Positions 7,157 through 24,171 of a stretch of 52,660 nucleotides of DNA are shown piece after piece. Where the stretch lies: positions 1 through 52,660 of the forward strand of contig JADIIM010000042.1 of the NCBI GenBank assembly GCA_015351705.1, in the 5' to 3' direction. The position numbers and the translations under genes are program-made. How positions within the stretch are numbered: position 1 is the first letter of the stretch; every line of letters begins with the position of its first letter. The DNA comes from Aeromicrobium sp. Lineage in GTDB: Bacteria; Actinomycetota; Coriobacteriia; Anaerosomatales; Anaerosomataceae. The notes beneath the pieces were generated by a model. It ran no database searches. It had not been told where the DNA came from and was given only the letters and a program-made list of their open reading frames with translations.

Positions 7157-7834
7157 ATGATGGAACGACAGAGCGTCCCGCAGACCACGATCCAGCGACT
7201 GCCCGCCTATCTCCGGTGTCTGTTGCAGGCGCAGGAGCAGCGCATGCCGGTCGTCAACTCGGTGGAGCTGGCCGAGATGTGCGGCACCAACGCCGCCCAG
7301 GTCCGGAAGGACCTCTCGTATCTCGGCGAACTCGGGACGCGCGGCATCGGATATGACGTGAAGGCGCTCATCGCGCACATCTCCAGCGTGCTCGGCATCA
7401 CCGAGCGGCGCCGGGCAGCGGTCATCGGATACGGCCGCTTCGGCGGCGCGCTGCTCGGCTACAGCGGGTTCGCCGAGCGCGGGTTCGAGATCGTCGCGGT
7501 CGTGGACGCCGACCCGGCCAAGGTGGGCACGCTCGTCCAGACGCCGTCCGGCGAGATCGCCGTGAGTGCGATCGACGACCTCGAGCGCGTGATGCAGGAA
7601 GCCGGCGTTGAGATCGCGATCCTCGCCACGCCCGCCAGCGTGACGCAGGGCATGGCCGACCGGCTCGTCGCAGCCGGGGTTCGTGCCATCCTGAACCTTG
7701 CGCCGGTCAGGCTCGTCGTCCCCGAGGGTATCGCCGTCCGACAGGTCTGTCTCTCCACCGATCTGCAGGTGCTCTCGTTCCACCTGGCACAGAACGCGCA
7801 GCACGGACCGCAAGGCGCCGACGAGCAGGAGTGA
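7157..7834 (+). CDS. rex: Redox-sensing transcriptional repressor Rex
   Basis: DNA-binding repressor that senses the NADH/NAD+ ratio; NADH releases it from operators in front of respiratory and fermentative genes. The 225-residue protein has the N-terminal winged helix (QRLPAYLRCLLQ; AAQVRKDLSYLGELG; GTRGIGYD) and a Rossmann domain with VIGYGRFGGALLG near residues 89-101, then VDADPAKVG and a C-terminal helix used in domain swapping. The start has AGAGAGG just upstream. It overlaps or nearly abuts the TPR and NHL genes leading into the cytochrome block, so local control of that block is a reasonable inference. A second, divergent Rex homologue lies at 20988. Confidence 0.95.
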   Translation: MMERQSVPQTTIQRLPAYLRCLLQAQEQRMPVVNSVELAEMCGTNAAQVRKDLSYLGELGTRGIGYDVKALIAHISSVLGITERRRAAVIGYGRFGGALLGYSGFAERGFEIVAVVDADPAKVGTLVQTPSGEIAVSAIDDLERVMQEAGVEIAILATPASVTQGMADRLVAAGVRAILNLAPVRLVVPEGIAVRQVCLSTDLQVLSFHLAQNAQHGPQGADEQE

Positions 7835-7836
7835 GG

Positions 7837-8523
7837 GTGGCAGACGAGGTTCCCATCACAGACGGCGGGCAGGCCGAGGTGTCCGAGCACGCTGAAGGGC
7901 TCGTGCCCGGATGGCTCGCGATCACCGTCCTGCTGCTGATGCTCGCGGTCGCCGCACTCGGCGGTTTCCTGGTTCGCGGGCTGCTCGTGAACGACCGTCC
8001 CGGTCCGCGCACTCCCTCCCAGTACGCGGTGGCCGAGTGGCAGCGGCAGGTCGACGCCGACCCCTCGGATCCTGACGCCCTCATCGGGCTTGGCTACGCG
8101 TTCCAGGAGGAGGGCAGGTACGAGGAGGCGCTCGCGGCCTACGCCGCCGCACTCGAGCTCGCACCGGGCAACACCGGAGCGCTCTACAACACCGGGATCG
8201 TCTACCTCGAACTCGGCCGAGGCGCGGAGGCCGAGGAGACGCTGTGGGACGTGCTCGAGGTCGCCCCTGACCACGTGCTCGCGGCCAAGGCCCTCGGCGA
8301 GTACTACACCGCCAAGGGGCAGTACAAGTCCGCACTCGTGGCCCTTGAGCCGGTCATCGAGGTGCGTCCCCAGTACGCGGACCTGCAGTATCTGGCAGGC
8401 AACGCGTGCGAGCAGCTCGGCATCACGGATACGGCCATCGAGTACTACCGCGGCGCGCTCACCTACCACCCCGACCACCTTGAGGCGCGTGAGGCGCTGG
8501 ACCGGTTGGGAGCGCAGGAGTGA
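7837..8523 (+). CDS. Membrane-anchored TPR protein
   Basis: Protein of 228 residues with a single N-terminal membrane helix (about 25-50, WLAITVLLLMLAVAALGG) and then three to four TPR units (DPDALIGLGYAFQEEGRYEEAL; NTGALYNTGIVYLELGRG; GQYKSALVALEPVI). The topology suggests an extracytoplasmic TPR domain like those of NrfG/CcmH-type helpers of cytochrome c assembly, though no specific family is recognised. GTG 7837 is preferred because AGGAG ends 5 bp before it; an in-frame GTG at 7831 would overlap that site. It is sandwiched between rex and the first NHL gene, with tight spacing that implies cotranscription. Confidence 0.75.
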   Translation: MADEVPITDGGQAEVSEHAEGLVPGWLAITVLLLMLAVAALGGFLVRGLLVNDRPGPRTPSQYAVAEWQRQVDADPSDPDALIGLGYAFQEEGRYEEALAAYAAALELAPGNTGALYNTGIVYLELGRGAEAEETLWDVLEVAPDHVLAAKALGEYYTAKGQYKSALVALEPVIEVRPQYADLQYLAGNACEQLGITDTAIEYYRGALTYHPDHLEAREALDRLGAQE

Positions 8524-8549
8524 GCGACGTCTCGACACAGGAGGGGGTC

Positions 8550-9656
8550 GTGTCCGGGGAGCTGCAGACGAGCACGTCCGGGGAGCTGCAGGCCGAGCGC
8601 CGCCCGCTGCTTACGCCACTGCGCACCTTCAAGATCGTCGCGGTGGTGCTGTTCCTGATCCTGGTCGGCCTGCTCATCTACCTACTTCTGTTCCTGGGTC
8701 GTCCGGACGACCTCTCTGCGCAGGCGCCACGACAGGGCATCCAGCCGGTCTGGCAGGTGTACGGCCCCGGTGAGGGCTCCGCCCCGTTCTTCGACCGACC
8801 GATGGGCGTGGCAGTGGGACGTGACCGCCGGATCTATGTGGCCGATGCCGGCAACAGCCGCGTCTGCGTGTTCGACTCGCAGGGCCGGTACCTGTTCACG
8901 TTCGGCTCCTTCGGTGTGGCAAAGCCGGCTCCCGGTGGCGTGACCACGTACGAGCCGGGCTCGCTCAACTATCCGGTGGGCATCGACACCGACGACGAGG
9001 GCAACGTCTACGTCGCAAGCCTGTACAACGACTCGATCGAGGTCTTCGACGCGGACGGAACGCCGCTCCGGCGCTTCCCGGACCCGCTCGAGGTCACCGG
9101 CAAAGGCGGTTCGGGCGAAGGGGGCCGCGGCATCGCGGTCACCGATGTCGCGGTCAGCGGCGAGCGCGTCTACGCGACCGACGCGTACCAGGTCCTCGTG
9201 TTCTCGCTCGATGGTGAGCTGCTCGACCAGTGGGGCCGTCCCGGGTCCGATGAGACCGGTCTCGACCGCCCCAACGGCCTCGCGGTGAGTGCCGATGGCG
9301 GCAGAGTGTATGTCTCGGACTCCAACAACAGCCGAGTCACCGCGTTCACCTCGACGGGTGAAGTCGTGTGGCAGGTGGGGGAGCCATCGCGGGGCGTAGG
9401 CGACCGCGAACCGCGGGAGATCGACCTGCCCAGGGGCCTGGCCGTCATGTCCGACGGATCGGTCCTTGTGGCGGACGCGTTCGCGTTCGAGCTGGTACGC
9501 ATCTCATCGCGCGGTGAGATCGTCGCCCGGTACGGTGAACGGGGTGTGGAGCCGGGGCAGTTGAACTTCGCCAACGACGTCGAGGTGCTTCGCGGCTTCG
9601 TCGTCATAGCGGATCGCGGCGTGGGCCGGATCCAGATGGTGCGCCTGATCGACTGA
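8550..9656 (+). CDS. Membrane-anchored NHL-repeat six-bladed beta-propeller protein (first copy)
   Basis: Protein of 368 residues with one N-terminal membrane helix (about 28-52, VAVVLFLILVGLLIYLLLFL) and an outer-face domain of five to six NHL repeats, e.g. MGVAVGRDRRIYVADAGNSR, VGIDTDDEGNVYVAS, NGLAVSADGGRVYVSDSNN and RGLAVMSDGSVLVADAF. NHL propellers are binding or scaffold domains; no enzyme is implied. GTG 8550 is preferred because AGGAGGGG lies 5 bp upstream; an alternative GTG at 8520 overlaps the previous stop and would add 10 residues. The gene is directly before the heme cluster, and a second NHL protein of the same layout sits at 13653. Confidence 0.8.
   Translation: MSGELQTSTSGELQAERRPLLTPLRTFKIVAVVLFLILVGLLIYLLLFLGRPDDLSAQAPRQGIQPVWQVYGPGEGSAPFFDRPMGVAVGRDRRIYVADAGNSRVCVFDSQGRYLFTFGSFGVAKPAPGGVTTYEPGSLNYPVGIDTDDEGNVYVASLYNDSIEVFDADGTPLRRFPDPLEVTGKGGSGEGGRGIAVTDVAVSGERVYATDAYQVLVFSLDGELLDQWGRPGSDETGLDRPNGLAVSADGGRVYVSDSNNSRVTAFTSTGEVVWQVGEPSRGVGDREPREIDLPRGLAVMSDGSVLVADAFAFELVRISSRGEIVARYGERGVEPGQLNFANDVEVLRGFVVIADRGVGRIQMVRLID
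8552..8591 (+). repeat. Two direct 16-bp repeats in the NHL gene N-terminus
   Basis: The 16-mer GTCCGGGGAGCTGCAG occurs at 8552-8567 and again, identical, at 8576-8591, a 24-bp period. It encodes two copies of SGELQ in the cytoplasmic tail before the membrane helix. It looks like a small in-frame duplication. Confidence 0.8.
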
Positions 9657-9665
9657 TCTGCGGGC

Positions 9666-9677
9666 GACGATATCGTC
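9666..9677. repeat. Perfect 12-bp palindrome in the gap before the cytochrome genes
   Basis: GACGATATCGTC reads the same on both strands. It lies 10 bp after the NHL stop codon and about 120 bp before the first cytochrome gene. There is no T tract, so a terminator is unlikely; it may be an operator half or chance. Confidence 0.35.
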
Positions 9678-9718
9678 TCATCGGCCTCGCTCATCCGGCC
9701 ATCGGCGCGCGAGCCCGC

Positions 9719-9744
9719 TTGTGAGGCCCGTCATTTGCTATGAT
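9719..9744 (+). promoter_or_regulatory. Possible promoter and Rex-like operator ahead of the multiheme cytochrome genes
   Basis: TTGTGA-GGCCCG-TCATTT (9719-9736) matches the actinobacterial Rex consensus TTGTGA-N6-TCACAA in 9 of 12 positions, with a perfect left half. Directly after it TATGAT (9739-9744) resembles a -10 box; TTGTGA is only 14 bp away, too short for a standard -35. The location, in the 138-bp gap before the 7-heme gene and 2 kb after rex, makes redox control plausible. Both calls are weak on sequence alone. Confidence 0.35.
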
Positions 9745-9794
9745 TACGATGGCTTACAGTGTACGGACGTACCCGGCGTGTGGAGGCAGGACGG

Positions 9795-10913
9795 ATGACG
9801 GCACGGCGCGTCCTCATGATGGTGGTGTTGCTGGCCGTCATCGTGGCGATTCCTGCGCTCGCACAGGCGTATCCGAGCGAAGCCACGCCTGAGATGATCG
9901 AGAAGCTGCCGGCGATGAAGCTGTGGCAGCCCGACCCGGACGGCCCCGGTTCGTGGATCCCGCCCGACCCGGACACGGACTGCTGGATCTGCCACGGAAC
10001 CCAGGAGGCCGACGAGCGCTCCGGTCCGCACGGCAACTACCTCACCACCACCAACAAGTGCGCCGTGTGCCACTCGGTGCATATGGCTCCCGCAGGAGGC
10101 GTCCTGCTCCTGCCTGCTGCAACCGTGAAGGACACCTGCGAGACGTGTCATGACGGCACTGGTGGCCGAGGCGTGTACGGCGCCATCGCCGCACGGGGGC
10201 TCACCGTCGAGTCACAGCACTCGGTCGAGGCCACCAACGCGATCCCCGGCGGCGACCCGTCCACCGGAGCCACGGCGACCGCCACGTTCTCGGGCGCGGG
10301 GGGTACGCTGACGTGCACCGACTGCCATAGCCCCCATGGTAACAACGTGGTCGAGCCGTTCACCGGAGACCGTGCGCGTTCCTCGGTGGACACCACGGTC
10401 ACGTCCACGCGACTGCTCAAGAAGCGCCCCACCACCGGGACCGAGGATGTCGAGCGCTACGGTTCGGACTGGTGCGGCGCATGTCACAAGGGCCGACTGG
10501 CCGGTTCAGGCGAGTTCGGCAACCACCCGGTGGACTCGAGCGTGACGCAGACCGACACCGCGCCGTTCCACTACGACAACGTGGCGCGTGTGGTGGGCGC
10601 ACTCGCGTCGACCACGGAGATGGGCACGCTCGGCAGGAACAACTTCGGCTACGTGATGCCGGACCCGCGCACTCCCGAGCAGGACGAGCACTACCCCATC
10701 TGTCAGCAGTGTCATGAGGACACGCGCGCAGTGGGCAATGTGGAGCTGCAGCAGATCGACACCACCGAACTCTACAGCGTGACGGCCACCGACGGCGTGA
10801 ACGCCTCGGACAATCCGCGCTTCCAGGTCTTTCCTCATGAGTCAAACACGAGACGGCTGCTCGTCGAGCCGACGACCTCGCTGTGCACCAACTGTCATGG
10901 GCCGATGCCATAG
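9795..10913 (+). CDS. Secreted 7-heme c-type cytochrome
   Basis: Protein of 372 residues with a Sec signal peptide (ARR, hydrophobic core, predicted cut after AQA25) and seven CXXCH heme sites in order: CWICH, CAVCH, CETCH, CTDCH, CGACH, CQQCH and CTNCH, the last only four residues from the C-terminus. Several are followed by S/D-P-H type residues as in doubled-CXXCH cytochromes. There is no membrane anchor after cleavage and no recognisable catalytic (CXXCK or reductase) motif, so an electron-carrier role outside the membrane is inferred. ATG 9795 has GGAGG 8 bp upstream and begins the signal peptide; the earlier ATG 9759 would add a non-family extension. It is the first gene of the cytochrome run. 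Confidence 0.88.
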   Translation: MTARRVLMMVVLLAVIVAIPALAQAYPSEATPEMIEKLPAMKLWQPDPDGPGSWIPPDPDTDCWICHGTQEADERSGPHGNYLTTTNKCAVCHSVHMAPAGGVLLLPAATVKDTCETCHDGTGGRGVYGAIAARGLTVESQHSVEATNAIPGGDPSTGATATATFSGAGGTLTCTDCHSPHGNNVVEPFTGDRARSSVDTTVTSTRLLKKRPTTGTEDVERYGSDWCGACHKGRLAGSGEFGNHPVDSSVTQTDTAPFHYDNVARVVGALASTTEMGTLGRNNFGYVMPDPRTPEQDEHYPICQQCHEDTRAVGNVELQQIDTTELYSVTATDGVNASDNPRFQVFPHESNTRRLLVEPTTSLCTNCHGPMP

Positions 10914-10928
10914 TCCCTGGGGGAGTCC

Positions 10929-12398
10929 TTGAGCGACCCGGACATCCACACAGATAACGTGATCGCCGAGGACGACCAGCGTCCCGCCCCGGCCAGCCGT
11001 CGTGGACGGGGCGTCTTCGCAGTCGTGGTGCTTCTGTTGCTCGCGCTGTGTGCGATCACCACCATCACCCAATCCTACCTCGGCAGCGGTGATGACGAGG
11101 TCATCCGGAGCATCGCGCGCAATCTCGAGTGCCTTCAGTGCCACACCGAGCTGATCCCGGATTTCTCTCGCGACATCGTGCACGACCCGTTCATGGCCGA
11201 GCGGTGTACCACCTGCCACACGCCGCACGGGGAGATCCGCACTGAGACGGTGCTCGAGGGCGTCCGGATGGCGTGGGGCCGCATCCGAACGCTCGTGCAG
11301 TGGCTGCCGCTCAAGATCGCGCTCGACGTCTTCGACACGGGAGAGCAGACCGCCGACGAGATCGATGTCGACCGGATCAAGAGCACGACCACGACCGAGG
11401 TGGCCGACAAGCCCTCCGAGCTCGTGCTTCCCGGCAACGACCTGTGCTGGATGTGCCACGGGGGGATGGGCCCGAAACTCGGCGAGGCGTACACGCATGC
11501 GCCGTTCATGAACGGCAACTGCGTGGACTGTCACGACCCGCACGCGTCGGACTTCCGCGGCATGCTGGCGATGGACGTGCGCGACCTGTGTGTCACGTGC
11601 CATCGGGTGGGTCCGGAGATGGATCGCGACCAGGTGCATCCCTCGTTCGCCGCACGCGTGTGCCTGGACTGCCACGACCCCCATGCGTCGCAGTACCGGG
11701 GCATCCTCGTCGATAGCCAGCGCAACCTGTGCTTCACGTGCCACCCGTCGGTGGCCCGGCTTTCGCGTATGGGTGTGCAGCACCACCCGTTCCAGTACGA
11801 CAACTGCACGGGCTGTCACGAGCCGCACGGCTCGAACTTCCGCCCGCTGCTCATCACCGCGCAGCCGGGGGTGTGCTATCTGTGCCATGACGACATCCGG
11901 CAGGACTTCCTGAAGCCGAGTCATCATCCGGTGGGGACCATCTCGCTCAACTGCAGCGACTGCCATGATCCTCACGCCACCAACTACGCCGGTCTGCTGT
12001 ACGCCGAGGATAACGACATCTGCTACGCGTGCCATCGGGTGCCTATCCAGGCCTCGTACGACAAGTCCGCACACCGGTCGACGCCCTGCTGGCGGTGCCA
12101 TACGCCGCACGGCTCTGACTGGGGCCCGCTGCTCAAAGGACCGCAGCCTGAGGTGTGCTTCCCGTGCCACGAGCGCAGGCACTTCGACGACCGCAAGGGC
12201 GGCTACTACAACCACCCCGTGCGGCCGGTCTACTATGATGTGAACGCGAAGAGCCGTCTGTCGTGCACGTCCTCATGTCACGGCCCGCACGGTACCGAGC
12301 ACACGCGCATGCTGCGCTACTACGACGCTCCGTTCGACGGCAACTGCCTGATCTGCCACGGCGTCGTGCCCGGCAAGCGTGTCGGCATCGACTTCTAG
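10929..12398 (+). CDS. Membrane-anchored 15-heme cytochrome with tandem doubled-CXXCH modules
   Basis: Protein of 489 residues, TTG start with GGGGGAG just upstream. A short cytoplasmic tail is followed by one membrane helix (about 28-46) and then a heme-rich outer domain: 14 CXXCH sites (CLQCH, CTTCH, CWMCH, CVDCH, CVTCH, CLDCH, CFTCH, CTGCH, CYLCH, CSDCH, CYACH, CWRCH, CFPCH, CLICH) plus one CX3CH site, CTSSCH, at 446-451. That is about one heme per 30 residues, typical of a linear electron wire. No catalytic motif is visible. It lies 15 bp after the 7-heme gene and 28 bp before the NapC-like gene, consistent with one operon; it may carry electrons from the membrane through the cell wall. 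Confidence 0.9.
   Translation: MSDPDIHTDNVIAEDDQRPAPASRRGRGVFAVVVLLLLALCAITTITQSYLGSGDDEVIRSIARNLECLQCHTELIPDFSRDIVHDPFMAERCTTCHTPHGEIRTETVLEGVRMAWGRIRTLVQWLPLKIALDVFDTGEQTADEIDVDRIKSTTTTEVADKPSELVLPGNDLCWMCHGGMGPKLGEAYTHAPFMNGNCVDCHDPHASDFRGMLAMDVRDLCVTCHRVGPEMDRDQVHPSFAARVCLDCHDPHASQYRGILVDSQRNLCFTCHPSVARLSRMGVQHHPFQYDNCTGCHEPHGSNFRPLLITAQPGVCYLCHDDIRQDFLKPSHHPVGTISLNCSDCHDPHATNYAGLLYAEDNDICYACHRVPIQASYDKSAHRSTPCWRCHTPHGSDWGPLLKGPQPEVCFPCHERRHFDDRKGGYYNHPVRPVYYDVNAKSRLSCTSSCHGPHGTEHTRMLRYYDAPFDGNCLICHGVVPGKRVGIDF
11520..12173 (+). repeat. Five tandem paired-heme modules inside the 15-heme cytochrome
   Basis: Five units start with CVDCH (11520), CLDCH (11661), CTGCH (11805), CSDCH (11952) and CWRCH (12087), giving periods of 47, 48, 49 and 45 codons. 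Each has the form CXXCH-[DET]-PH[AG], then an S/T-x-[FYW] turn, then a second CXXCH (CVTCH, CFTCH, CYLCH, CYACH, CFPCH). The regularity points to growth by internal duplication. Confidence 0.85.
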
Positions 12399-12426
12399 AC
12401 CACGACCGCGAGGAGAACGACACCGC

Positions 12427-13656
12427 ATGGCCTTCAACCCGTTTGCCAGCTTCAAAGACGCTGACCGTCGCCCTCGCGCTCTCATCTGGACCTCCGTGGC
12501 GCTCATCGGGTTCGCCGCGTTTCTCATCGCAGCGCTCGGCGCGACGTCGAGCTACTGGTTCTGCGGCGGATTCTGCCACTCGGTCCAGCTCGACCCGGTG
12601 GTGGCCTACGACAACTCCTCGCACAACATGGTCGCCTGCGTGTCGTGCCACCTTCCGGTCAACGGAGACCCGGTCACGTTCCTCTACCACAAGGCGCATG
12701 CCGGCATCGTCGGTGCGTACGAACTCATCACGAAGACCTACCATGTGCCGCTCAACCCGGTGAGCCACCTCGCGCTCGACGGCGGTCACATGGGCTCGGA
12801 GCAGTGTCTTCAGTGCCACTCGGAGAACCGGACGATGACGCCCACCAAGGGCATCATCATCGACCACGAGGTCCACGAGGAGAACCACATCCACTGCACG
12901 GTGTGCCACAACCGTGTAGCGCATCCTGAGCGTGACCTCGAGATCACGATGGTGGATCCGGAGACCGGCGAGCCGGCGGCCCTGCACGCCGACTTCATGA
13001 GCATGACCGCATGCTTCCGTTGCCATACACTCACCGGCGAATCGCCGTCCGGCGCCGAGTATGCCGCGCCGGGAGAGTGCTCGGCATGCCACCCGGCCAA
13101 CTTCGATCTCAAGCCTGCCAACCACAAGGACGAAGGCTTCTACCCCAAGGGCCACGCCGCGCTGGCGAACATGGAGATCGACCACGCCACGGGCCGTCCG
13201 GCGGAGAACGTCCGCAAGCCCGTCATTCACGGCGAGGACCATGAGAGCACCGCCACGGCCGGCTCGGACTACGCGCCATCGTCCGGTGACGACCACGTGC
13301 TCCACCTGGCGAGCGTCTCGGCGATCGACTACTGCAGCACGTGCCACCTGGTGGACCGCTTCTGCGTGGACTGCCACGGCGTGGAGATGCCGCACCCGGC
13401 GGGCTTCGTGACCGGTCACGGCGATGTGGGCAAGAGCAACCCGGATTCGTGTGCGATGTGCCACCTCGGCGAGGGGCGGCCGGTCGAGACGATGAGTATG
13501 GAGTTCTGCAACGCCTGTCACCACAAGACCGGTGATCCGACCAAGCCATGGATCCCGCAGCACGTGGGTGCGGTGCGCGAGTCCGGCGCCCAGGCGTGCT
13601 TCGAGTGCCACACCCCGACGTACTGCGCCGCGTGCCACGTGCGGGGCGGCCAGTGA
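12427..13656 (+). CDS. NapC/NirT-type membrane tetraheme domain extended to 12 hemes
   Basis: Likely menaquinol dehydrogenase. An N-terminal membrane helix (about 18-40) leads into a NapC/NrfH-like four-heme domain: CGGFCH (46-51, a CX3CH variant at the quinol-side heme), CVSCH (71), CLQCH (127) and CTVCH (157). A C-terminal region of about 230 residues adds eight more: CFRCH, CSACH, CSTCH, CVDCH, CAMCH, CNACH, CFECH and CAACH. At 409 residues it is about twice the usual NapC/NrfH size, so quinol oxidation and a heme wire seem joined in one chain. ATG 12427 was chosen because the family N-terminus begins there, with AGGAG upstream. It sits between the 15-heme wire and an NHL gene. Confidence 0.88.
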   Translation: MAFNPFASFKDADRRPRALIWTSVALIGFAAFLIAALGATSSYWFCGGFCHSVQLDPVVAYDNSSHNMVACVSCHLPVNGDPVTFLYHKAHAGIVGAYELITKTYHVPLNPVSHLALDGGHMGSEQCLQCHSENRTMTPTKGIIIDHEVHEENHIHCTVCHNRVAHPERDLEITMVDPETGEPAALHADFMSMTACFRCHTLTGESPSGAEYAAPGECSACHPANFDLKPANHKDEGFYPKGHAALANMEIDHATGRPAENVRKPVIHGEDHESTATAGSDYAPSSGDDHVLHLASVSAIDYCSTCHLVDRFCVDCHGVEMPHPAGFVTGHGDVGKSNPDSCAMCHLGEGRPVETMSMEFCNACHHKTGDPTKPWIPQHVGAVRESGAQACFECHTPTYCAACHVRGGQ

Positions 13657-14678
13657 CCGACGGGCCTGTCGCGCGCGGCTTCGAGGTCAGGCCGCGCACG
13701 ATCGTGATCGCCATGGTCGCGATCGCGGTCGTGGCTGCGATCGTGCTGGCGCTCTCGCTCATGGACTTCACGCGGCCGGGCAGCATCGAGTTCGCCGAAC
13801 TCGCCGAGGGCCAGACCGTGGGCCTCGCCGGCGTCTTCCCGCCCGAGGGTGAGCCGCCGCTGGCCAATCCACTCGGCATCGTCTGGGACGGTGAGCGGCT
13901 GTACGTTGCCGAGTCCGACGCCGGCATCGTGCGTGTCTACGACGAGCGCGGCGGCGTCATCGGCGCGATCACGATCCCTGTGGCCGAGGGCGTGCCCTCG
14001 GCGTACCCGGCGGTGCTTGCGGTCGCTGGCGACCGGCTCGCTGTGGTGGACAACGCCGCGATGCGCGTGGTCGTCATGTCCGCGGACCCCGCCGCCGAGA
14101 CGGACGCCGGGGACCTGGAGGCCGCGAGCGGCGCGAGCGCCCCGGCGGTCCTGTTCGCGCTCGGCGAAGAGGGCGACCCGCCCCGCCAGCCGACGGCGGT
14201 GACTGTGTACGGCGACGAGTACTTCGTGGCCGATGCCGCGGATTCGGATATCAAGGTCTACGACGCCGGGGGGCGGTTCGTGCGCAGCATCGCGGGCGAC
14301 CTGTCGCCGCGGCTCACGTACGTGGGCGGCATGGTCGTCGACGACCGCGGGCTGTGCGTGGTGGACTCCAACGCCGGCCGGGTGCTCATCGTGGATCCCG
14401 GTACCGGTGAGGAGGTGCTCGAGTGCGAGGAGCGTTTCACGCTTCCCCGTGCGATCGTCTCGCTCGGCGAGGGGGCGGCCGTGGTCGACGCGTTCGCGCG
14501 CTCGGTCTCGATCATCGACGCCCACGGAGCGCTGGCCGAGTCGATCGACGCCGGGACCGTCCCGGAAGGCTCGATGGCCTCACCGCGCGGCGTTGCGTGG
14601 GTTCCTGATCCCGGCCGGCTGTACGTGACCGATACGGCGTCCGGGGTCGTCGTGGTGTTCAATGTCCAGCCCCGATGA
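13653..14678 (+). CDS. Membrane-anchored NHL-repeat beta-propeller protein (second copy)
   Basis: Protein of 341 residues beginning at a GTG that overlaps the upstream TGA (GTGA), a sign of translational coupling to the 12-heme protein. One membrane helix (about 16-36, IVIAMVAIAVVAAIVLAL) precedes six propeller blades, e.g. LGIVWDGERLYVAESDAG, PTAVTVYGDEYFVADAA, GGMVVDDRGLCVVDSN and RGVAWVPDPGRLYVTDTA. It has the same plan as the protein at 8550 but low apparent identity. No heme site or catalytic motif is present. Coupling to the quinol dehydrogenase suggests it is a structural or docking partner of the cytochromes. Confidence 0.82.
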   Translation: MTDGPVARGFEVRPRTIVIAMVAIAVVAAIVLALSLMDFTRPGSIEFAELAEGQTVGLAGVFPPEGEPPLANPLGIVWDGERLYVAESDAGIVRVYDERGGVIGAITIPVAEGVPSAYPAVLAVAGDRLAVVDNAAMRVVVMSADPAAETDAGDLEAASGASAPAVLFALGEEGDPPRQPTAVTVYGDEYFVADAADSDIKVYDAGGRFVRSIAGDLSPRLTYVGGMVVDDRGLCVVDSNAGRVLIVDPGTGEEVLECEERFTLPRAIVSLGEGAAVVDAFARSVSIIDAHGALAESIDAGTVPEGSMASPRGVAWVPDPGRLYVTDTASGVVVVFNVQPR

Positions 14679-14713
14679 CGAGGCTCGTTCGGTGGCGGTG
14701 ACCTCGGGCGTAT

Positions 14714-14742: not shown

Positions 14743-14820
14743 TTCGTTCGGCTGCCGATCATTCTGGCACGTGGTCTGCTGCTCGGTCAGCGGTCGAGCA
14801 CAAGGAGTGAGAGCACCCGA

Positions 14821-17800
14821 GTGATTCGAGTACCGACCATCCAGGCTTGCCAGTGGGTCGATCGACTGCCTGGTGAGCAGGCGTACGCGCGCGTGCTGCG
14901 CGTGCTGCTTCTTGGTGTGGTCGCCGCAGTGCTCGCGTCTCCCGCTGTCGCTTTCGCCGCAAGCCCGCACGTGGCATACGACTCCGGCTCGGCGGCATGC
15001 GACGCCTGCCACGCGCCGCACCAGGCGTCTTCCACGCGCTACCTGTTCAACGAGCGCGCCACCGCAGGCGGCGCGCGCGCCTCCCAGGCCGCGCTGTGCT
15101 ATACGTGCCACGACGGGTCGACGGCCGGCAACGTCAAGACCGGGCCGTACTCGTTCGGCTCGGCGAGCGGGCACACCGTCGAGGAGCGCGGCCCGGGTGC
15201 CGCAGGCGCCGACCTCACCGACAGCTGCTCGTCGTGCCACTACGCGCACAACGACTGGACCGACGACGTGCGCCTCCCGCGCCCGACGATCAACGGCCGC
15301 GCGGTCACCGGCGCCGACACGAGCTGGTGCCTGGCCTGCCACGACGACGCGCAGAGCTGGTACGCCTCGACGACCACCACGCCCTACCCGCAGCTCTCCT
15401 CACCTGTGCGCGCTGAAGACGGCTATCCGGCGACCGGCACCTTCCCCGGCGCGACGGTCTACACGGACGCGGTGGCAAACCCCCACGCCTCGATCCCGGC
15501 GAGCATCGTACCGGGCGTGGCCGTGCCGAGCCGTGAGGCCACCCGCGCCGCCGGTGACTGCCTGTACTGTCACGCCGCGCACGGCGGCGTGAGCGAGCGC
15601 GACGGACTGCTCAAGCCCTTCGGGGCCTCGAGCGACTCGGTCGTCGACCGCGAGCAGGGCCGCTACGCCGAGCTGTGCTTCCGCTGCCACGCCGGCGCCG
15701 ACTCCGAACTCGACTTCGGCGTCGCCGACATCAAGTCGCTCGTGACCCACGACGCCGACGACCCGGGGCACACCATCCGCACCGCCGGCGGCACCTACGC
15801 CCCCGGCTCGCCATTGCCGTGCTACGAGTGCCACAACCCCCACGGCTCGGCAGGGGGCAACACCCGCCTGATCGCCGACACGGTGGGCGAGGGGCTGGAT
15901 CCCCGCACGCCGGCCGATCCGGAGAACGCCGGTGCGAGCGCGGATAAGGTCCGCCGGTTCTGCTTCGCATGCCATACCACGTATGACACCGCTCCCGTCG
16001 GACGGCCCTGGGGTTGGGACAGCGAGGCGGGCGAGTATGCTGCGGTGGGGGCGACCGACGACGTGGTCGGCCTTGCGCGGAGCGCGGCGGTGGGCGCCAA
16101 CCTGCTGCGTCTTCCGTCCGCGACCGGCCACAACAAGGACGACCTCAACAGCTGCTACGACTGTCACGGTGACATCCACCGACCGATGGGCGGCGTCTCC
16201 ACCGGTGGGGTGCCGTGCTCGGTATGCCACCAGGCCCTGAACGGTATGGCCCACAACCCGCCGGAGTACTACGGCGACACCGATACCTACCATCACGTGC
16301 TCACGGATCCGAACTGGGACCAGGCACCCGAGGACGGACCCTATCCTGTCTACGATCCGGTCACCTCGCCCACACTCTCGTGCGTGAGCTGCCACATGGA
16401 TCACGGGCAGTATGAGGCACTGCCGGACGGCATCGGCAAGGCGTATTCGCTCAGGAGCAGCGCTCTCGAGGCGTATCCGACGCCGGTCAACACCGATGAC
16501 GGACTGTGCCTGAGCTGTCACGATTACTCGCTCGGCGCGCGTATCCTGCGCAACGAGGAGGGCCAGAAGCCCAACGCGATGACCTCGACCACGGTTATGC
16601 GCGTCGAGGAGAACATGTGGTACGGGGATGCCACGGCTGACCCGCCGGTGCCGCCATCACCGCACAACTACACCGTACCGGGCGACTTCAACGACGGCTC
16701 GACCTTCTACGCCAACTGTGCGAAGTGCCACGGCACGCTCGGCGGGACGCTCTCGAGCGGGCAGTTCGCGGTCCACTTCTCTCCGGAGCAGCGACTCATC
16801 AACGCGCTTGGCGACGCCACCGTCTATGAGATCAACGAAGAGGAGATGTGCTTCCGCTGTCACAGCTACCGGGCCGATGGGCTGGCGGGTGACATCAAGC
16901 CGGTCGACGACAAGGACTGGTACGGCATCGCGGACATGAGTCGTGCGAGCCAGGCGATCTACTCGCAGATGGAGCCAAGTAACAACCAGTTCGGCCACAA
17001 GCCGCACGACTACAAGGGCTTGCACCTGATCGCGTCGGTCGATGAGACACAGGACTACATCAGCAACAACAAGCACGTCGAGTGCGCCGACTGCCACAAC
17101 CATCATGTCGTCGGCAAGGTCCGCCACGTCTACGGCACCGATAACCGCGTATCCGGAGCGCTCAAGGGCGTGCGTGGCGTCGGGTTTAAGGACGGTGCGC
17201 TCGCCACGCTCGCTCAGGACAACTGGGCCATCGCCAACCCGATCTCATACGGGACCGGTGCGAGCGACGAGCTCGAGTACAAGCAGTTCGCCACGTACGA
17301 GTACGAGATCTGCTTCAAGTGCCACTCCTCGGCCAACACACGTCTTGCCGAGTGGGGCGGGAAGATGGTCTGGACCGACTGGTCGAACCCGTCATCGCCG
17401 GGCACGGGCACCAACACCAGCGTGAACAACTGGACCAATGTGGCCCAGGATTTCAACGTGGGTAACAACTCGCGGCACCCGGTCTTCGCCACGCTCGGCG
17501 GGTACTACTACCCGTCCGCCGAGGCCGATACGATGGTGCAGATCTCCGGGTACGCCGACACGGTCACACGTGGCACGAGCTCGCTTGAGGCGTACCAGGT
17601 CTCCAACGGCTGGGGCCAGGGCGACACGATGATGTGCTCGGACTGCCATGGTGACTCGAGCGCGCCCTACGCGATGGTCGAGGACCCGCCCGGGTCGGGT
17701 GTCTGGGTGCCGAACCCCGCGGCGGTGAACGTGCCTCAGGGCCCGCACGGCGCCTCGATCCGCTACTCGCTGCGTGGTCCGGGGACCGACTGGCCCGTCC

Positions 17801-18198
17801 GCACGGATCTGGCCACGCCGCGGCTGATCACGCTGAACGACCTCGGTGATGCGTCATATGCGTCGAACATCTTCTGCAGCAACTGCCATCCGGCTGAGAA
17901 GGCGATCGACAACCGCGCGCACTCGGCAAGCAGGCAGGGTCATGGACCGCGGGCATGCATCAACTGTCATGTGCTGGTGCCGCACGGGTCCAAGGTCTCG
18001 CGCCTCATCGGCGATCGTGAGACCATGCCGGCGCGCCTTGCCTACCAGGGCAACATCAACAACATGATGATGTCGAGCTACCAGAAGGGCGCCTCGACCA
18101 AGAACTCATGCTCCGTCGTCGCCGGCTCCGTGTGCACCGGCGGTAGCGGTCACAGCGTCACCGGCAACCGCACCGGCGGCAACTGGGAGAACTGGTAG
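14821..18198 (+). CDS. Secreted 19-heme giant c-type cytochrome
   Basis: About 1,125 residues with a long n-region, a hydrophobic core at 26-44 and a signal-peptidase site near AFA46. Nineteen CXXCH sites run through the protein (CDACH, CYTCH, CSSCH, CLACH, CLYCH, CFRCH, CYECH, CFACH, CYDCH, CSVCH, CVSCH, CLSCH, CAKCH, CFRCH, CADCH, CFKCH, CSDCH, CSNCH, CINCH). There is no C-terminal anchor. Heme density is low, one per 59 residues, with Ser/Thr/Gly/Asn-rich stretches, so beta-rich domains between hemes are likely. The C-terminus has an extra non-heme Cys pair (CSVVAGSVC). GTG 14821 is preferred, with AAGGAG 13 bp upstream; GTG 14893 is a possible later start. Probably an extracellular electron carrier or terminal reductase. 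Confidence 0.88.
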   Translation: MIRVPTIQACQWVDRLPGEQAYARVLRVLLLGVVAAVLASPAVAFAASPHVAYDSGSAACDACHAPHQASSTRYLFNERATAGGARASQAALCYTCHDGSTAGNVKTGPYSFGSASGHTVEERGPGAAGADLTDSCSSCHYAHNDWTDDVRLPRPTINGRAVTGADTSWCLACHDDAQSWYASTTTTPYPQLSSPVRAEDGYPATGTFPGATVYTDAVANPHASIPASIVPGVAVPSREATRAAGDCLYCHAAHGGVSERDGLLKPFGASSDSVVDREQGRYAELCFRCHAGADSELDFGVADIKSLVTHDADDPGHTIRTAGGTYAPGSPLPCYECHNPHGSAGGNTRLIADTVGEGLDPRTPADPENAGASADKVRRFCFACHTTYDTAPVGRPWGWDSEAGEYAAVGATDDVVGLARSAAVGANLLRLPSATGHNKDDLNSCYDCHGDIHRPMGGVSTGGVPCSVCHQALNGMAHNPPEYYGDTDTYHHVLTDPNWDQAPEDGPYPVYDPVTSPTLSCVSCHMDHGQYEALPDGIGKAYSLRSSALEAYPTPVNTDDGLCLSCHDYSLGARILRNEEGQKPNAMTSTTVMRVEENMWYGDATADPPVPPSPHNYTVPGDFNDGSTFYANCAKCHGTLGGTLSSGQFAVHFSPEQRLINALGDATVYEINEEEMCFRCHSYRADGLAGDIKPVDDKDWYGIADMSRASQAIYSQMEPSNNQFGHKPHDYKGLHLIASVDETQDYISNNKHVECADCHNHHVVGKVRHVYGTDNRVSGALKGVRGVGFKDGALATLAQDNWAIANPISYGTGASDELEYKQFATYEYEICFKCHSSANTRLAEWGGKMVWTDWSNPSSPGTGTNTSVNNWTNVAQDFNVGNNSRHPVFATLGGYYYPSAEADTMVQISGYADTVTRGTSSLEAYQVSNGWGQGDTMMCSDCHGDSSAPYAMVEDPPGSGVWVPNPAAVNVPQGPHGASIRYSLRGPGTDWPVRTDLATPRLITLNDLGDASYASNIFCSNCHPAEKAIDNRAHSASRQGHGPRACINCHVLVPHGSKVSRLIGDRETMPARLAYQGNINNMMMSSYQKGASTKNSCSVVAGSVCTGGSGHSVTGNRTGGNWENW

Positions 18199-18222
18199 AC
18201 GCTCCTGCGGTATCCTGCGAGT

Positions 18223-19536
18223 ATGTCCCGCACATCCGTTCTCGCACGCGTCGTCCGTGCGCTCACCTCCCGTCGCGCCTCGATGGCGCTCATGGCGTTC
18301 GTCGCCGTGGCAGGTGCGGTCGGGGCCTGGTTCCCGCAGCGAGCGCTCGTCTCGCCCGAGGCGATGGCCTCCTGGGAGGTCGATAACCCCGCGCTGGCAG
18401 GCGCTTCCCGGGCCCTCGGACTCGACGCGCTGTTCAGCACGTGGTGGTTCCTCGTCGCACTCGGCGTGTTCTCGCTGATGCTCCTCGTCGCCACCGCCCG
18501 GATGGCCGTCGAGGCCCGTGGCGCGATGGTCGGGCAGGCGGTGGCACCGCATACCACCGTGCCTTGCGTGTGCGCTGATGAGATGGCCGAGCGGGCGCGC
18601 ACCGCGGGCTACCACGAGCTCCGCGGCACCGCAGACGGCGTCCGCGTCTTCATGCGCCACCGATGGGGGCTCTGGGGTCCGACGGTGCTTCACGCCGGCA
18701 TGGTCGTCGCGCTCCTGGCTGCGCTGGCCGCCTCGGCGCTCACCTCGCAGGCCGTCCTCGACCTGTCCGAGGGCGAGGTGCGCGCTCCGGGAGACGACTA
18801 CCTCGTGACCGAGTTCGACGTGCTCGGGCGCGCTCCGGAGGTCGGCCGGGCGATGCGTTTCGACGGGGCGAGCACCGAGACATGGCCGGACGGTTCGCTC
18901 AAGTCGGTCACCGCGACGCTGTCGGTCCTTGAGGGCGACGCTGGTTGGGTCACGCACACGAGCTCGCCGAACGCGCCGTTGAGCCTGCATGGCCACACCA
19001 TCTACGTGCTCCCCGGCGACTTCGGAGACGCGGCCTTCCTGGCTGTCACTGCCGCGGATGGCACCGAGTACCGGCTCCGCACGGAGTTCACGTTCGTGCC
19101 GGAGGGAGAGGCGGGTTACGCGCAGGTCGTCCCGGCGGGAGTGCCGGTGATCGACGCACGCTGGGACCCGCATGGCGTTCGCGGGCCCGCCGCTCTTTCG
19201 CTGCGCCCGGCAGGCGACTCGGGCGCCGAGCCCGTGGCGGTGGCGCCCGGCGAGACCGTCGAGGTGGGGGACTACACGGTCACGCTCGTGGGTATGGCAC
19301 AGTGGATGGCGTTCCGCATCGTCCGTCCCTATGCCATCGGCGTGCTCTTCCTCGGCTTCGGTATCATCGGGCTTGGCTCACTCATGCTCTATCTGTGGGT
19401 CCCGCGTGAGCTCGTGATCGTGCCGTCCGCCGATGGCGTGCGGTACGGCTGGCGAGCGGCGAGGATGGGGCGTACGTACCTTGCCGAGCGAGACGCCATA
19501 CTCGGCCGGGCCCCTGACGCAGGAGAGGACAGATGA
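18223..19536 (+). CDS. resB: Cytochrome c biogenesis protein ResB
   Basis: Half of the system II heme-delivery and ligation complex, with CcsA, at the outer face of the membrane. The 437-residue protein has the ResB plan: two N-terminal membrane helices (about 20-40 and 75-100), a third near 150-172 (GPTVLHAGMVVALLAAL), a large outer domain, and a final helix near 370-393 before a short cytoplasmic tail. The outer domain has the typical LSLHGHTIYVLPGDFGD-like stretch. It is directly after the 19-heme gene and overlaps ccsA by ATGA. No ResA or CcdA gene is next to it, so apocytochrome thiol reduction must come from elsewhere. Confidence 0.88.
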   Translation: MSRTSVLARVVRALTSRRASMALMAFVAVAGAVGAWFPQRALVSPEAMASWEVDNPALAGASRALGLDALFSTWWFLVALGVFSLMLLVATARMAVEARGAMVGQAVAPHTTVPCVCADEMAERARTAGYHELRGTADGVRVFMRHRWGLWGPTVLHAGMVVALLAALAASALTSQAVLDLSEGEVRAPGDDYLVTEFDVLGRAPEVGRAMRFDGASTETWPDGSLKSVTATLSVLEGDAGWVTHTSSPNAPLSLHGHTIYVLPGDFGDAAFLAVTAADGTEYRLRTEFTFVPEGEAGYAQVVPAGVPVIDARWDPHGVRGPAALSLRPAGDSGAEPVAVAPGETVEVGDYTVTLVGMAQWMAFRIVRPYAIGVLFLGFGIIGLGSLMLYLWVPRELVIVPSADGVRYGWRAARMGRTYLAERDAILGRAPDAGEDR

Positions 19537-20366
19537 TGCAGCAGGCACTGGCGGTCGAGACGCCGCTTCACATCGCCGCACTGGCGATCTACGCGCTCGC
19601 GGTGGGCCTCACGCTCTTCGGTGTCTTGATGTCACGTCCGGCGTTCGTGCGAGCCGGGCACATCGCCGCAGTGGCGGGGCTTGCCGTGCACTCCGCAGCG
19701 CTCGGACTACGCTGGTACGGTGCCGGTCATGGCCCGTACCTGACGCGGTACGAGGTCCTCTCATCCAACTCCTGGGCGGCGATGACGCTCTTCGAGCTGG
19801 TGGCGCTGCGCGACCGGCGGATGCGCGGATTGGCCATGCTCATCTATCCGGCGGCGCTGTTGACCCTCGGCATCGGCGTGTACACCGGCCCGGAGGTGCA
19901 GACCCTGCCGCCAACCTTCACCGGCGTCTGGCTCGTGCTGCACGTATGCTTCTACTTCGTGGCGTTCGCCGCGGCCCTGCTCTCGCTCGGCTACGGCCTC
20001 GCACACGTCGCCCGTGACACACGGCTGCTTGCGCGCGTGCCGGCGCTGCCGGACCGGGGCACCCTCGACCGCGAGTCGTACCGGTTCGCCGGCCTCACGT
20101 TCGCGTTCTGGGGCATCGGCATGCTGACGGGTGCGATCTGGGCGTACTACTCCTGGGGCCGCTTCTGGGGCTGGGACCCGGTGGAGACGTGGTCGCTCGT
20201 CACGTGGTTCGTGTACGGTATCTACCTGCACGCGCGCCGGTTCTACGGGCTCAGAGGGCGCAAGGCCGCGCTCCTCTTGCTTCTCGGCTTCGTGCTGGCG
20301 ATCGGCTCGCTCTTCTTTACATCGCTGCTCACGACGTCGCTCCATTCCGAGTACTTCAGCTCGTGA
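19533..20366 (+). CDS. ccsA: Cytochrome c biogenesis protein CcsA (heme-handling synthetase subunit)
   Basis: Integral membrane heme exporter and ligase of system II. The 277-residue protein has about eight membrane helices, conserved His residues (PLHIAAL near the start; VLHVCFYFVAFA), and the WWD motif WGRFWGWDPVETWSL at about 208-222 that presents heme to apocytochrome. AGGAGAGG precedes the ATG, and the start overlaps the resB stop. Together ResB and CcsA would mature all four multiheme cytochromes upstream; two of these carry CX3CH sites, so the pair may tolerate longer heme motifs. Confidence 0.92.
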   Translation: MMQQALAVETPLHIAALAIYALAVGLTLFGVLMSRPAFVRAGHIAAVAGLAVHSAALGLRWYGAGHGPYLTRYEVLSSNSWAAMTLFELVALRDRRMRGLAMLIYPAALLTLGIGVYTGPEVQTLPPTFTGVWLVLHVCFYFVAFAAALLSLGYGLAHVARDTRLLARVPALPDRGTLDRESYRFAGLTFAFWGIGMLTGAIWAYYSWGRFWGWDPVETWSLVTWFVYGIYLHARRFYGLRGRKAALLLLLGFVLAIGSLFFTSLLTTSLHSEYFSS

Positions 20367-20391
20367 ACGGCGCGTCGGGCAAGGAGAGGCC

Positions 20392-20832
20392 ATGAGGGAT
20401 CTGCGAACACCGGTGGTCACCGTGCTGCTCCTCGTGGTGGTCGCCGGCATCCTGACGGGATGCGCCGCCCGCGACGCGAGCGGGCATCCCGCCGCTGCCG
20501 TCGTCGAGGCCCTGCTCGAACTGCGGCGCGCCGATGTGCGCGACCCTGCCTCGTACGCGCCGCTCGTGCGCGAATCTCGCGTGGCCACGGCGCTCGCGTC
20601 GCCGGCCGACGATGTAGCCGGCACGCCGCGGGTGCCCGGGTGGGAGCCGCCGTACGTGAGCGCGGAGACGAGCGTGTCGGCTGACGTGGTCGTGGTGTGG
20701 AGGCCCGACGAGGCGTTCACCGGGTGGCCCGTTGCGACCGTCTTCCTGACCATGCTCGAAGACGGGGCGTGGGTGGTCGTCGACGCGGTCGAGGTCGACG
20801 ATCCGCCGCCTGCCGGTGATGAATCAGAGTGA
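20392..20832 (+). CDS. Small predicted lipoprotein after ccsA
   Basis: Protein of 146 residues, ATG with AAGGAGAGG upstream. The N-terminus is a lipoprotein signal peptide with lipobox ILTGC (Cys24). The mature part is a short alpha/beta domain ending LEDGAWVVVDAVEVDD, with an acidic tail; it recalls NTF2-like or DUF4878-type small domains but no family is firmly recognised. No heme motif. Its ending resembles that of the lipoprotein at 21661 (LEDGAWLVDRVD), so the two may be paralogues flanking the Rex-like gene. Spacing of 25 bp from ccsA supports cotranscription. Confidence 0.75.
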   Translation: MRDLRTPVVTVLLLVVVAGILTGCAARDASGHPAAAVVEALLELRRADVRDPASYAPLVRESRVATALASPADDVAGTPRVPGWEPPYVSAETSVSADVVVVWRPDEAFTGWPVATVFLTMLEDGAWVVVDAVEVDDPPPAGDESE

Positions 20833-20870
20833 ACGCACGAGGCCGTAGAACGCTCACAGATAACGGCTTC

Positions 20871-20906
20871 CGCCTCTGACGTGCTGCGTAAGCGCAGGTA
20901 GAGGCG
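20871..20906. terminator. Nested stem-loop between the cytochrome/lipoprotein run and the Rex-like gene
   Basis: An outer stem CGCCTCT (20871-20877) pairs with AGAGGCG (20900-20906), and inside it CTGCG-TAAG-CGCAG (20884-20897) forms a second stem. Only a weak T-rich stretch follows. Position after the last gene of the block fits a terminator, but a regulatory RNA element ahead of the next gene cannot be excluded. A -10-like TACAAT follows at 20948-20953. Confidence 0.5.
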
Positions 20907-20987
20907 CATCTTCGTTATTGATGTCGCAATGTCTTCTCGCGATGCGCTACAATGCGACTGTCTGCACCTGCCACGGGAGGCCCCGAG

Positions 20988-21644
20988 ATGTCTGACCCTC
21001 GCACAGCCCCGGACGCCACGCTCTACCGGCTGTCGCTGTACCACTGCTACCTCGGAGAGCTTATCAGGGTCGGCGCGCCCGAGCGCATCACCTCTCGCCA
21101 GCTCGCCGAGGAGCTGAACATCAAGGAGGAGACGGTCCGTCGCGACATCTCCTTCGTCGGCGACATCGGCCGTCCTGGCGCGGGGTACGATCCGATCGTG
21201 CTCTACTCCGAGTTCACCAAGTTCCTCGGCCTGTCCGAGGAGTATCCGATCATCAAGGTCGGGACGACCAAGATGCTCGAGGCGCTCCAGGTGGTCTTCC
21301 CCGCGGAGCGCTACGGGATCAAGCCGGTCGCGTACTACTCTGAGCTTCCTGAAGACTCGGGGACCGAGGTCGGCGGAGTCGAGGTCAAGCATCTTACCGA
21401 CATCCCACGTCTCGACGCTGGCCTCGGCGTGTCGGTGGCGCTTGTCGCGTGCTCGCCGGGATGGGTCCAGATCACGCTCGACCTGCTGTCCGGAGCGGGC
21501 GTGAACGGCGTCTTGCTGCTCACCCCGATCATCCGCGTGCGCCGGCCCGAGGGCATGAACGTCACGCAGCTGCGCATGCCGTGCGACTTGAAGTCGCTGG
21601 CGTGCCGGTGCCGTGTGCCCGTGGGTACCGTCGGCACGATGTAG
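20988..21644 (+). CDS. Rex-like transcription regulator lacking the NAD(H)-binding glycine motif
   Basis: Protein of 218 residues, ATG with GGGAGG 7 bp upstream. The N-terminal 80 residues match Rex closely: TLYRLSLYHCYL, ETVRRDISFVGDIG, RPGAGYD align with the rex product at 7157. The expected Rossmann GXGXXG is replaced by IIKVGTTKMLEALQ, so NADH sensing in the usual way is unlikely. It carries five cysteines, including C199-X6-C206-X-C208 near the C-terminus plus C20 and C155, which could bind a metal or cluster or act as a thiol switch; this is inference. It lies between two lipoprotein genes, right after the cytochrome block it may control. Confidence 0.8.
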   Translation: MSDPRTAPDATLYRLSLYHCYLGELIRVGAPERITSRQLAEELNIKEETVRRDISFVGDIGRPGAGYDPIVLYSEFTKFLGLSEEYPIIKVGTTKMLEALQVVFPAERYGIKPVAYYSELPEDSGTEVGGVEVKHLTDIPRLDAGLGVSVALVACSPGWVQITLDLLSGAGVNGVLLLTPIIRVRRPEGMNVTQLRMPCDLKSLACRCRVPVGTVGTM

Positions 21645-21660
21645 TCGGCGCGGCGGGCGA

Positions 21661-22221
21661 GTGGTCGTGCATCCGAGTGCCGCGCAGCGTTCCCGCGATC
21701 CGCGGGCGCGCCGGTGTCCGGTAGCTCTCGTCCTGGCGGGTCTGCTGATCACCGCGTGCGCTGGCTGTGCGGCGCCCGACGCACAGGCCGGTGACGCTGT
21801 CCCGGAGGTGACGTCGGCCCCGATCCCGGTCGACGTCACGTCACCGGAGAGCGCCGTGCGCTCCTATCTGGAGCGGATCAGCTTTGCCTACCGGGTGCTC
21901 GATTCGAGCGTCGCGTCTTCGACGGTGACCATCGCCGAGTCCGTGCGGGTGGACGCGTATGTCCAGCTCAATGCCATGGAAGGCCGTGGACTCGATCAAC
22001 GCGTGGAGGAGCTCGCGATCACGTCGGTGTCGCGAGAGGAGACCTCGGCGATCGTCACCGCGCGCGAAGAGTGGGCGTACCGCTACTTCTCGCTTGAGAC
22101 GCTCAAGTATCTTTCCGAGGTGCTCACCGCGAGCTACGAGACGACCTACACGCTGGTTCTTGAAGATGGCGCCTGGCTTGTGGACCGGGTCGACGCGCGC
22201 CCGCTCGGCGAGATCCGCTGA
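21661..22221 (+). CDS. Predicted lipoprotein after the Rex-like gene
   Basis: Protein of about 186 residues. A GTG at 21661 (or 21667) begins a basic n-region, then a hydrophobic stretch ending in lipobox LITAC (Cys33). The mature domain is alpha/beta with TSPESAVRSYLERISFAYR, a pattern seen in NTF2-like/DUF4878-type extracytoplasmic domains, and ends LEDGAWLVDRVDARPLGEIR. No ribosome binding site decides between the two GTGs. No catalytic or heme motif. Possible distant paralogue of the 20392 lipoprotein. Confidence 0.65.
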   Translation: MVVHPSAAQRSRDPRARRCPVALVLAGLLITACAGCAAPDAQAGDAVPEVTSAPIPVDVTSPESAVRSYLERISFAYRVLDSSVASSTVTIAESVRVDAYVQLNAMEGRGLDQRVEELAITSVSREETSAIVTAREEWAYRYFSLETLKYLSEVLTASYETTYTLVLEDGAWLVDRVDARPLGEIR

Positions 22222-24169: not shown

Positions 24170-24171
24170 CG

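Follow-up and report, generated by a model that had tools for sequence, protein, structure and literature searches.

Two Rex-type regulators at a multiheme cytochrome locus of Anaerosomatales, one of them a candidate Rex subfamily without NAD(H) motifs

A stretch of 52,660 nucleotides from Aeromicrobium sp. (contig JADIIM010000042.1, assembly GCA_015351705.1; GTDB family Anaerosomataceae), referred to here as the window, contains a 15-kb locus of 13 closely packed genes, all on the forward strand, in which four multiheme cytochromes lie between two regulators of the Rex type, Rex1 and Rex2. Which electron route do these cytochromes serve, and which signals do the two regulators bring to it? 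A reading made from the letters of the DNA alone (the sequence-only reading) had described the locus as a self-contained and complete route from menaquinol to the exterior of a Gram-positive cell. We arrive, with a probability of about 0.6, at a single-membrane electron conduit framed by two local regulators, of which Rex2 would act independently of NAD. The electron-transfer role is likely and partly known already; the result added here is Rex2, a candidate new Rex subfamily without NAD(H) motifs that is linked to multiheme modules.

Rex2 and the NAD(H) site

When 53 sequences of the Rex2 family are aligned with 50 canonical Rex and Rex1 proteins, the two groups separate at the residues that bind NAD(H). 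The second and third glycines of the GxGxxG motif are changed in all Rex2 sequences and kept in all 50 canonical Rex and Rex1 proteins, and the NAD aspartate, likewise kept in 50/50, is a serine in 53/53 of the Rex2 family. Asp188 is gone from every Rex2 and Tyr98 from all but one (52/53). Two cysteines, one at the position of Arg16 and one three residues after that of Asp188, are each present in 53 of 53 Rex2 sequences, a family that diverges down to about 28% identity, whereas neither occurs in the 50 comparison proteins. The numbering is that of Thermus aquaticus Rex, transferred through an ungapped alignment of helix 1 and the Rex alignments. In that protein, Asp188 contacts Arg16' in the open dimer and Tyr98' in the closed one (PMC6125430). 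Both Rex2 cysteines therefore map to the allosteric contact, and they may lie close to each other across the subunits.

The rest of the protein has stayed Rex-like. The winged helix scores 44.6 bits against PF06971 (threshold 27), and Arg51 and Asp53 of its VRxD motif are kept in 53/53 sequences. An AlphaFold2 (AF2) model of Rex2 (pLDDT 91) superimposes on the Rex/DNA/NAD+ structure 3ikt_B with a Z-score of 19.8 over 206 residues. Rex2 thus shares its whole-length fold and its winged helix-turn-helix (wHTH) VRxD motif with the Rex proteins of T. aquaticus and T. maritima, but has lost their GxGxxG, NAD aspartate, Tyr98 and Asp188 in exchange for two invariant cysteines. Even against the best of the curated NCBIfam Rex models it remains below the cut-off (104.9 versus 126 bits), and in a tree a long branch with full support sets all Rex2-family rows apart, a result that carries a warning on long rows. 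Judged from these residues, Rex2 probably no longer binds NAD(H) in the known way. The sequence-only reading was right in form in naming two Rex-type regulators, yet the second of them departs from a normal Rex. Apparently this branch of the Rex family is without a name so far; a literature search returned no described NAD-independent Rex paralogue tied to multiheme cytochromes, a result that leaves room for one in subscription papers. Rex1, in comparison, has the NAD motif and passes the curated cut-off, and GxGxxG is found in 20/20 Rex1 proteins. In 14 of the 20 Rex1 proteins of family f1, that of the window, Asp188 is a cysteine and the NAD pocket motif is intact.

A candidate operator accompanies Rex2. 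The dyad CCGTT-N7-AACGG lies about 90-140 bases upstream of rex2 and is matched at 9/10 positions or better in 11 of 38 upstream regions, versus a mean of 0.3 and a maximum of 1 in shuffled regions. Some distant members have an 18-bp form, TCGTT-N8-AACGA. Rex2 probably binds the dyad upstream of its own gene. The f1-type dyad was not seen before the Rex2 genes of family f42, some of which are preceded by the palindrome TTGATAATTATCAA instead; it is perfect at L129:9886 and L131:13085 and is possibly a different operator of the f42 genes.

Rex2 also travels with cytochromes outside its own order, Anaerosomatales/OPB41 (Coriobacteriia). A phylum-wide scan recovered Rex2-like proteins in families f42 (11 genomes) and f74, and multiheme genes lie alongside in 9 of the 12 out-of-order loci that were read, mostly as a 12-heme and 10-heme pair, with TPR, NHL and small cytochrome genes frequently coming next. 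The same succession, OAgLig-like/12-heme/10-heme/NHL/4-heme/3-heme, forms a second module beside Rex2 in genome G005. As a control, canonical Rex loci of f42 had multihemes in 0/5 cases. Three tandem diverged copies of Rex2 adjoin cytochrome genes at L056:6486-8649. In two loci of the own order that have no multihemes nearby (L078:2634-5898 and L079:1170-2980), Rex2 stands next to a gene of the cytochrome-biogenesis type for a DsbD_2 plus cupredoxin membrane protein, and in L078 the CCGTT-N7-AACGG dyad precedes both Rex2 and the DsbD_2 gene.

Based on these observations, we tentatively propose, at clearly less than an even chance, that NADH sensing in the Rex2 subfamily has been replaced by a cysteine switch (thiol, metal or heme) at the old Arg16'-Asp188 interface, and that Rex2 is specialised for the control of multiheme-cytochrome conduits and of cytochrome c maturation, throughout one order as well as in two or more other families of Actinomycetota.

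The cytochromes, their partners and their relatives

Reading the open reading frames (ORFs) again reproduced the heme counts of the sequence-only reading: 7, 15, 12 and 19 motifs in Cyt7, Cyt15, NapC12 and Cyt19, or 53 in total (51 CXXCH and 2 CX3CH). Residue shuffles of the four proteins gave means of 0.02-0.13 motifs and a maximum of 3. Pfam and NCBIfam models agree with the families named earlier (Rex, TPR, two NHL proteins, NapC-like, ResB and CcsA); the two lipoproteins were accepted on lipoboxes seen by eye and have no clear family match. All features are listed in Table 1.

Table 1. Genes and other features of the locus and its downstream neighbours (positions in the window)
Feature	Position	Strand	Evidence or remark
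Rex1	7157..7834	+	NCBIfam Rex 266 bits (cut-off 226); intact GxGxxG; Cys at Asp188 position
TPR protein, membrane-anchored	7831..8523	+	Pfam TPR; N-terminal hydrophobic helix by direct reading
NHL1, membrane-anchored NHL beta-propeller	8520..9656	+	Pfam NHL 4e-26
Cyt7, secreted 7-heme cytochrome	9795..10913 (ORF from 9759)	+	7 CXXCH; Paired_CXXCH
Cyt15, anchored MtrA/DmsE-like cytochrome	10929..12398	+	14 CXXCH + 1 CX3CH
NapC12, NapC/NrfH-like cytochrome, putative menaquinol oxidase	12379..13656	+	11 CXXCH + 1 CX3CH
NHL2, second membrane-anchored NHL propeller	13653..14678	+	Pfam NHL; synteny
Cyt19, secreted 19-heme cytochrome	14893..18198	+	19 CXXCH; MtrC/F domain II-IV model 81 bits
ResB, cytochrome c maturation system II	18223..19536	+	PF05140 6.9e-18
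CcsA/CcsB-like heme lyase	19533..20366	+	PF01578 2.2e-34; CcsB model 157 bits (cut-off 187.6)
Small lipoprotein 1 (Lip1)	20392..20832	+	Lipobox LTGC by eye; no family match
Putative operator, degenerate dyad copy ACGCTCACAGATAACGG	20850..20866	+	8/10 to CCGTT-N7-AACGG; 138 bases before start 20988
Rex2	20988..21644 (ORF from 20952)	+	Rex-fold regulator without NAD(H) motif; invariant Cys20 and Cys199
Small lipoprotein 2 (Lip2)	21664..22221	+	Lipobox-like N-terminus by eye; weak NTF2-like match
B12-binding radical SAM protein (rSAM), syntenic neighbour	22400..24169	+	TIGR04190 618 bits; adjoins Rex2 in many relatives
UbiE/MenG menaquinone methyltransferase, neighbour	24025..24900	+	TIGR01934 245 bits

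The middle region of Cyt15 gives a profile match (2.7e-24) to 6r2q_A, which we take to be MtrA of the MtrCAB complex, although the depositor's molecule name differs. Against the DmsE/decahem_SO model it scores 169 bits, below the cut-off of 192, and it differs from the decaheme wires MtrA and DmsE in having 15 rather than ten heme motifs, a membrane anchor and no beta-barrel partner in sight. The class is taken as single-membrane, and the locus as annotated showed no gene for an outer-membrane beta-barrel protein. NapC12 combines an N-terminal membrane helix, read directly, with a NapC/NirT four-heme domain; its first four-heme part is NapC/NrfH-like (PF03264, 27.6 bits over 24.1) and matches NrfH 2j7a_C in a profile search (1.9e-4), though at 44.4 bits it stays well under the NrfH equivalog cut-off of 134.2. 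The ORF of Cyt19 opens at 14662; its probable start is the GTG at 14893, near which a signal peptide begins. Family searches with this protein matched general multiheme domains only, and a sequence search of the PDB with Cyt19 or NapC12 as single queries gave no match. An AF2 model of Cyt19 from 16 sequences had a mean pLDDT of 37 and was not used.

ResB and CcsA supply the paired components of cytochrome c maturation system II at the locus itself. The description of the locus as self-contained is nevertheless overstated: the genome has five CcsA-family genes, four of them elsewhere, and several NapC-like paralogues lie on other contigs, so neither the maturation nor the quinol-oxidation genes are exclusive to the locus. 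Long intergenic gaps are confined to three places, upstream of Cyt7, where Cyt19 starts, and upstream of Rex2, and internal promoters are therefore likely there.

Conservation of the gene order had been set in advance as a test, and the order does recur in relatives across the Anaerosomatales, a little-studied order of actinobacteria from the subsurface; the outcome favours the sequence-only reading. Of 298 genomes scanned across the class, about 42, all in the own order, carry a Rex2 orthologue (identity about 47-85%), and the other orders yielded no Rex2 match above the level of ordinary Rex. In 40 loci the recurrent order is OAgLig - Rex1 - TPR - NHL1 - (Cyt7) - Cyt15 - (NapC12), continued by (NHL2 - Cyt19 - ResB - CcsA) - Lip1 - Rex2 - Lip2 - rSAM, with blocks lost, inserted or duplicated between relatives. 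Cyt7 is found in part of these clusters only. Cyt15 is the constant core of the locus, and every orthologue listed keeps its 14 CXXCH and one CX3CH. Among named public genomes it occurs in about 35 assemblies of Coriobacteriia, Anaerosomatales and Actinomycetes, the next relative being from Geobacterales at 26% identity.

A conduit of this kind has very probably been described in outline already, from two isolates of the then new order Anaerosomatales (PMC9686372). Parvivirga hydrogeniphila Es71-Z0120 is an obligate Fe(III) reducer that couples Fe(III) to H2 or formate; in its cluster MCL4079323-32, homologues of MtrA, OmcH and quinol oxidases are accompanied by genes for cytochrome biogenesis and for a regulator of the Rex type. 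Anaerosoma tenue M08DHB respires sulfur compounds and does not reduce Fe(III); its cluster MCK8114672-75 encodes homologues of MtrA, OmcH and CFE_2239 (PMC9686372). Both clusters resemble that of the window: they come from its taxonomic order and have MtrA- and OmcH-like multihemes, to which the first adds quinol-oxidase-like multihemes, biogenesis genes and a Rex-type regulator, and each has a phosphoglucomutase gene within a few genes (MCL4079339 and MCK8114681, respectively; PMC9686372). The window has a phosphoglucomutase at 825-2225, and genomes G005 and G016 have one at the matching position beside the locus. The two described clusters are very probably orthologous to this locus, and there is a strong but indirect case that G005 and G016 are the genomes of the two isolates. 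The likely Parvivirga genome departs from the window in having a 33-heme cytochrome in place of Cyt19 and a core without Cyt7 and NapC12. In the core of A. tenue, Rex1 and NapC12 were not found. The loss of NAD motifs in one Rex goes unremarked in the description of these isolates (PMC9686372). The 33-heme protein, which carries F5/8-type C and carboxypeptidase-regulatory-like domains (L048:6265-10218, also L046 and L047), stands in for Cyt19 in a genus to which Parvivirga and the biocathode organism EMTCatB1 probably belong.

Partly similar systems come from other Gram-positive or single-membrane bacteria. Clusters 1-Fe-T to 3-Fe-T of the Gram-positive Dethiobacter alkaliphilus likewise encode MtrA-like and CymA-like multihemes together with NHL and TPR proteins and respond to thiosulfate and ferrihydrite, but they include flavoproteins and ABC transporters, come from another phylum and are described with no mention of Rex (PMC10376724). 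OmhA/SmhA-C of Carboxydothermus ferrireducens and OcwA of Thermincola are also surface multihemes of single-membrane cells without a porin-cytochrome complex; they are other cytochromes with other heme numbers, and again no Rex is mentioned (PMC7829351). An extracellular electron-transfer role, as suggested earlier for this locus, gains from its resemblance to clusters called related to such transfer in Gram-positive bacteria (PMC10376724; PMC9686372), but does not extend to proven Fe(III) respiration.

Electron flow, regulation and competing explanations

In the reading that we prefer, NapC12 would oxidise menaquinol in the membrane. The electrons would then move out through the wall zone by way of the anchored Cyt15, an MtrA/DmsE-like wire, and the secreted Cyt7, and reach the large secreted Cyt19, which would exchange electrons, giving or taking them, with something outside the cell. 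The NHL and TPR proteins may hold or assemble the complex, and ResB and CcsA would attach its hemes. Rex1, with its NAD(H) pocket kept, would be one of the two local regulators framing the locus. Rex2, derived from Rex and probably binding an altered dyad of the Rex type ahead of rex2 itself, would be switched by a signal other than NAD(H), our preferred guess being thiol/disulfide chemistry or the binding of a metal or heme at the two invariant cysteines. The supply of cytochromes would then track the redox state of the envelope or of the maturation machinery, and not NADH.

Several points weigh against this reading. The conduit of this organism is predicted from its genes, and the sensing mechanism of Rex2 is a proposal drawn from residue patterns. 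The menaquinol-to-exterior route has the NapC/NrfH-like signature and the MtrA/DmsE-like core in its favour, but many clusters that share the rest of the gene order lack NapC12, and because of this a complete route as a fixed unit, as first proposed, is unsupported. The dyad is perfect before rex2 in 7/7 genomes scanned and is the sole perfect copy in three of them, but these seven were picked for a perfect rex2 copy, so that only its rarity elsewhere is informative; the window's own copy is degenerate (8/10). The canonical Rex box TGTGAA-N4-TTCACA has three matches in the window at up to three mismatches, which is below chance. In loci L078-L081 no multiheme gene lies within 10 kb of Rex2. 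In 11/15 canonical Rex loci of the own order, a conserved gene with 21-22 heme motifs lies at a distance of 4-6 kb, and proximity to cytochromes is therefore only supportive within the order. The gene near this third, canonical Rex is NapC-like, and most of the order's genomes have the two at that distance (L181, L182, L184-L191 and L193; G000:C40:16593-25264).

It may be asked whether Rex2 senses anything at all. A dead or dominant-negative Rex, repressing constitutively or forming heterodimers with Rex1, would leave the redox signal to Rex1 alone. The loss of every NAD contact tested, the retained wHTH and the presence of Rex1 nearby in many clusters would all fit, as would the exchange of Asp188 for cysteine in Rex1 of f1 itself (14/20). 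A dead sensor, however, would hardly retain two cysteines unchanged across so divergent a family, and Rex2 occurs in several loci without a recognised Rex1 (L063-L065), and outside the order as well; we regard this explanation as unlikely.

The direction and the end point of electron flow allow further alternatives. The cluster might serve a soluble acceptor such as thiosulfate, sulfite or nitrite and not extracellular electron transfer, which we consider improbable to a similar degree. The likely genome of A. tenue, a respirer of sulfur compounds, has the core cluster, and for this reason the cluster is not to be equated with Fe(III) reduction, which also counts against our own reading; the thiosulfate response of the Dethiobacter clusters and a weak profile match of Cyt19 to a NrfA-type enzyme (E 0.014) point the same way. 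On the other hand, none of the four cytochromes has the CXXCK catalytic heme motif that marks classical NrfA/octaheme nitrite or tetrathionate reductases, every CXXC in them preceding a histidine, Cyt19 matches no enzyme family model in NCBIfam, and Cyt15 is nearest to wires of the MtrA/DmsE type. Inward flow, with electrons taken up from, for example, a cathode or Fe(II), has the lowest standing of the three and seems quite improbable. EMTCatB1, whose genome carries the locus (BDLO01000001, 1,034,000-1,046,000), dominates an electromethanogenic biocathode, where its multihemes are highly expressed and electron uptake has been proposed (PMC7943316), but that expression concerns multihemes in general and is not assigned to this locus, and the cultured Parvivirga isolate pairs Fe(III) with H2 or formate.

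Possible menaquinone genes downstream and wider meaning

Downstream of Rex2, at 22400-26324 of the window, the B12-binding radical SAM gene (TIGR04190) and the UbiE/MenG methyltransferase gene are followed by a deaminase gene. The radical SAM gene is probably outside the conduit proper. The closeness of these first two genes fits a menaquinone setting, and it is possible that menaquinone modification is tied to the conduit through the genes downstream of Rex2.

Little is known about the regulation of extracellular electron conduits in single-membrane bacteria. If the proposal for Rex2 is correct, a Rex that retains its DNA-binding residues but has no NADH site and has two fixed cysteines at the allosteric contact would show, in nature, how a sensor domain can come to respond to a different signal, an idea that can be tested on one small soluble protein. 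The dyad and the co-occurrence of Rex2 with cytochrome modules may also serve as a marker for such conduits in uncultured lineages.

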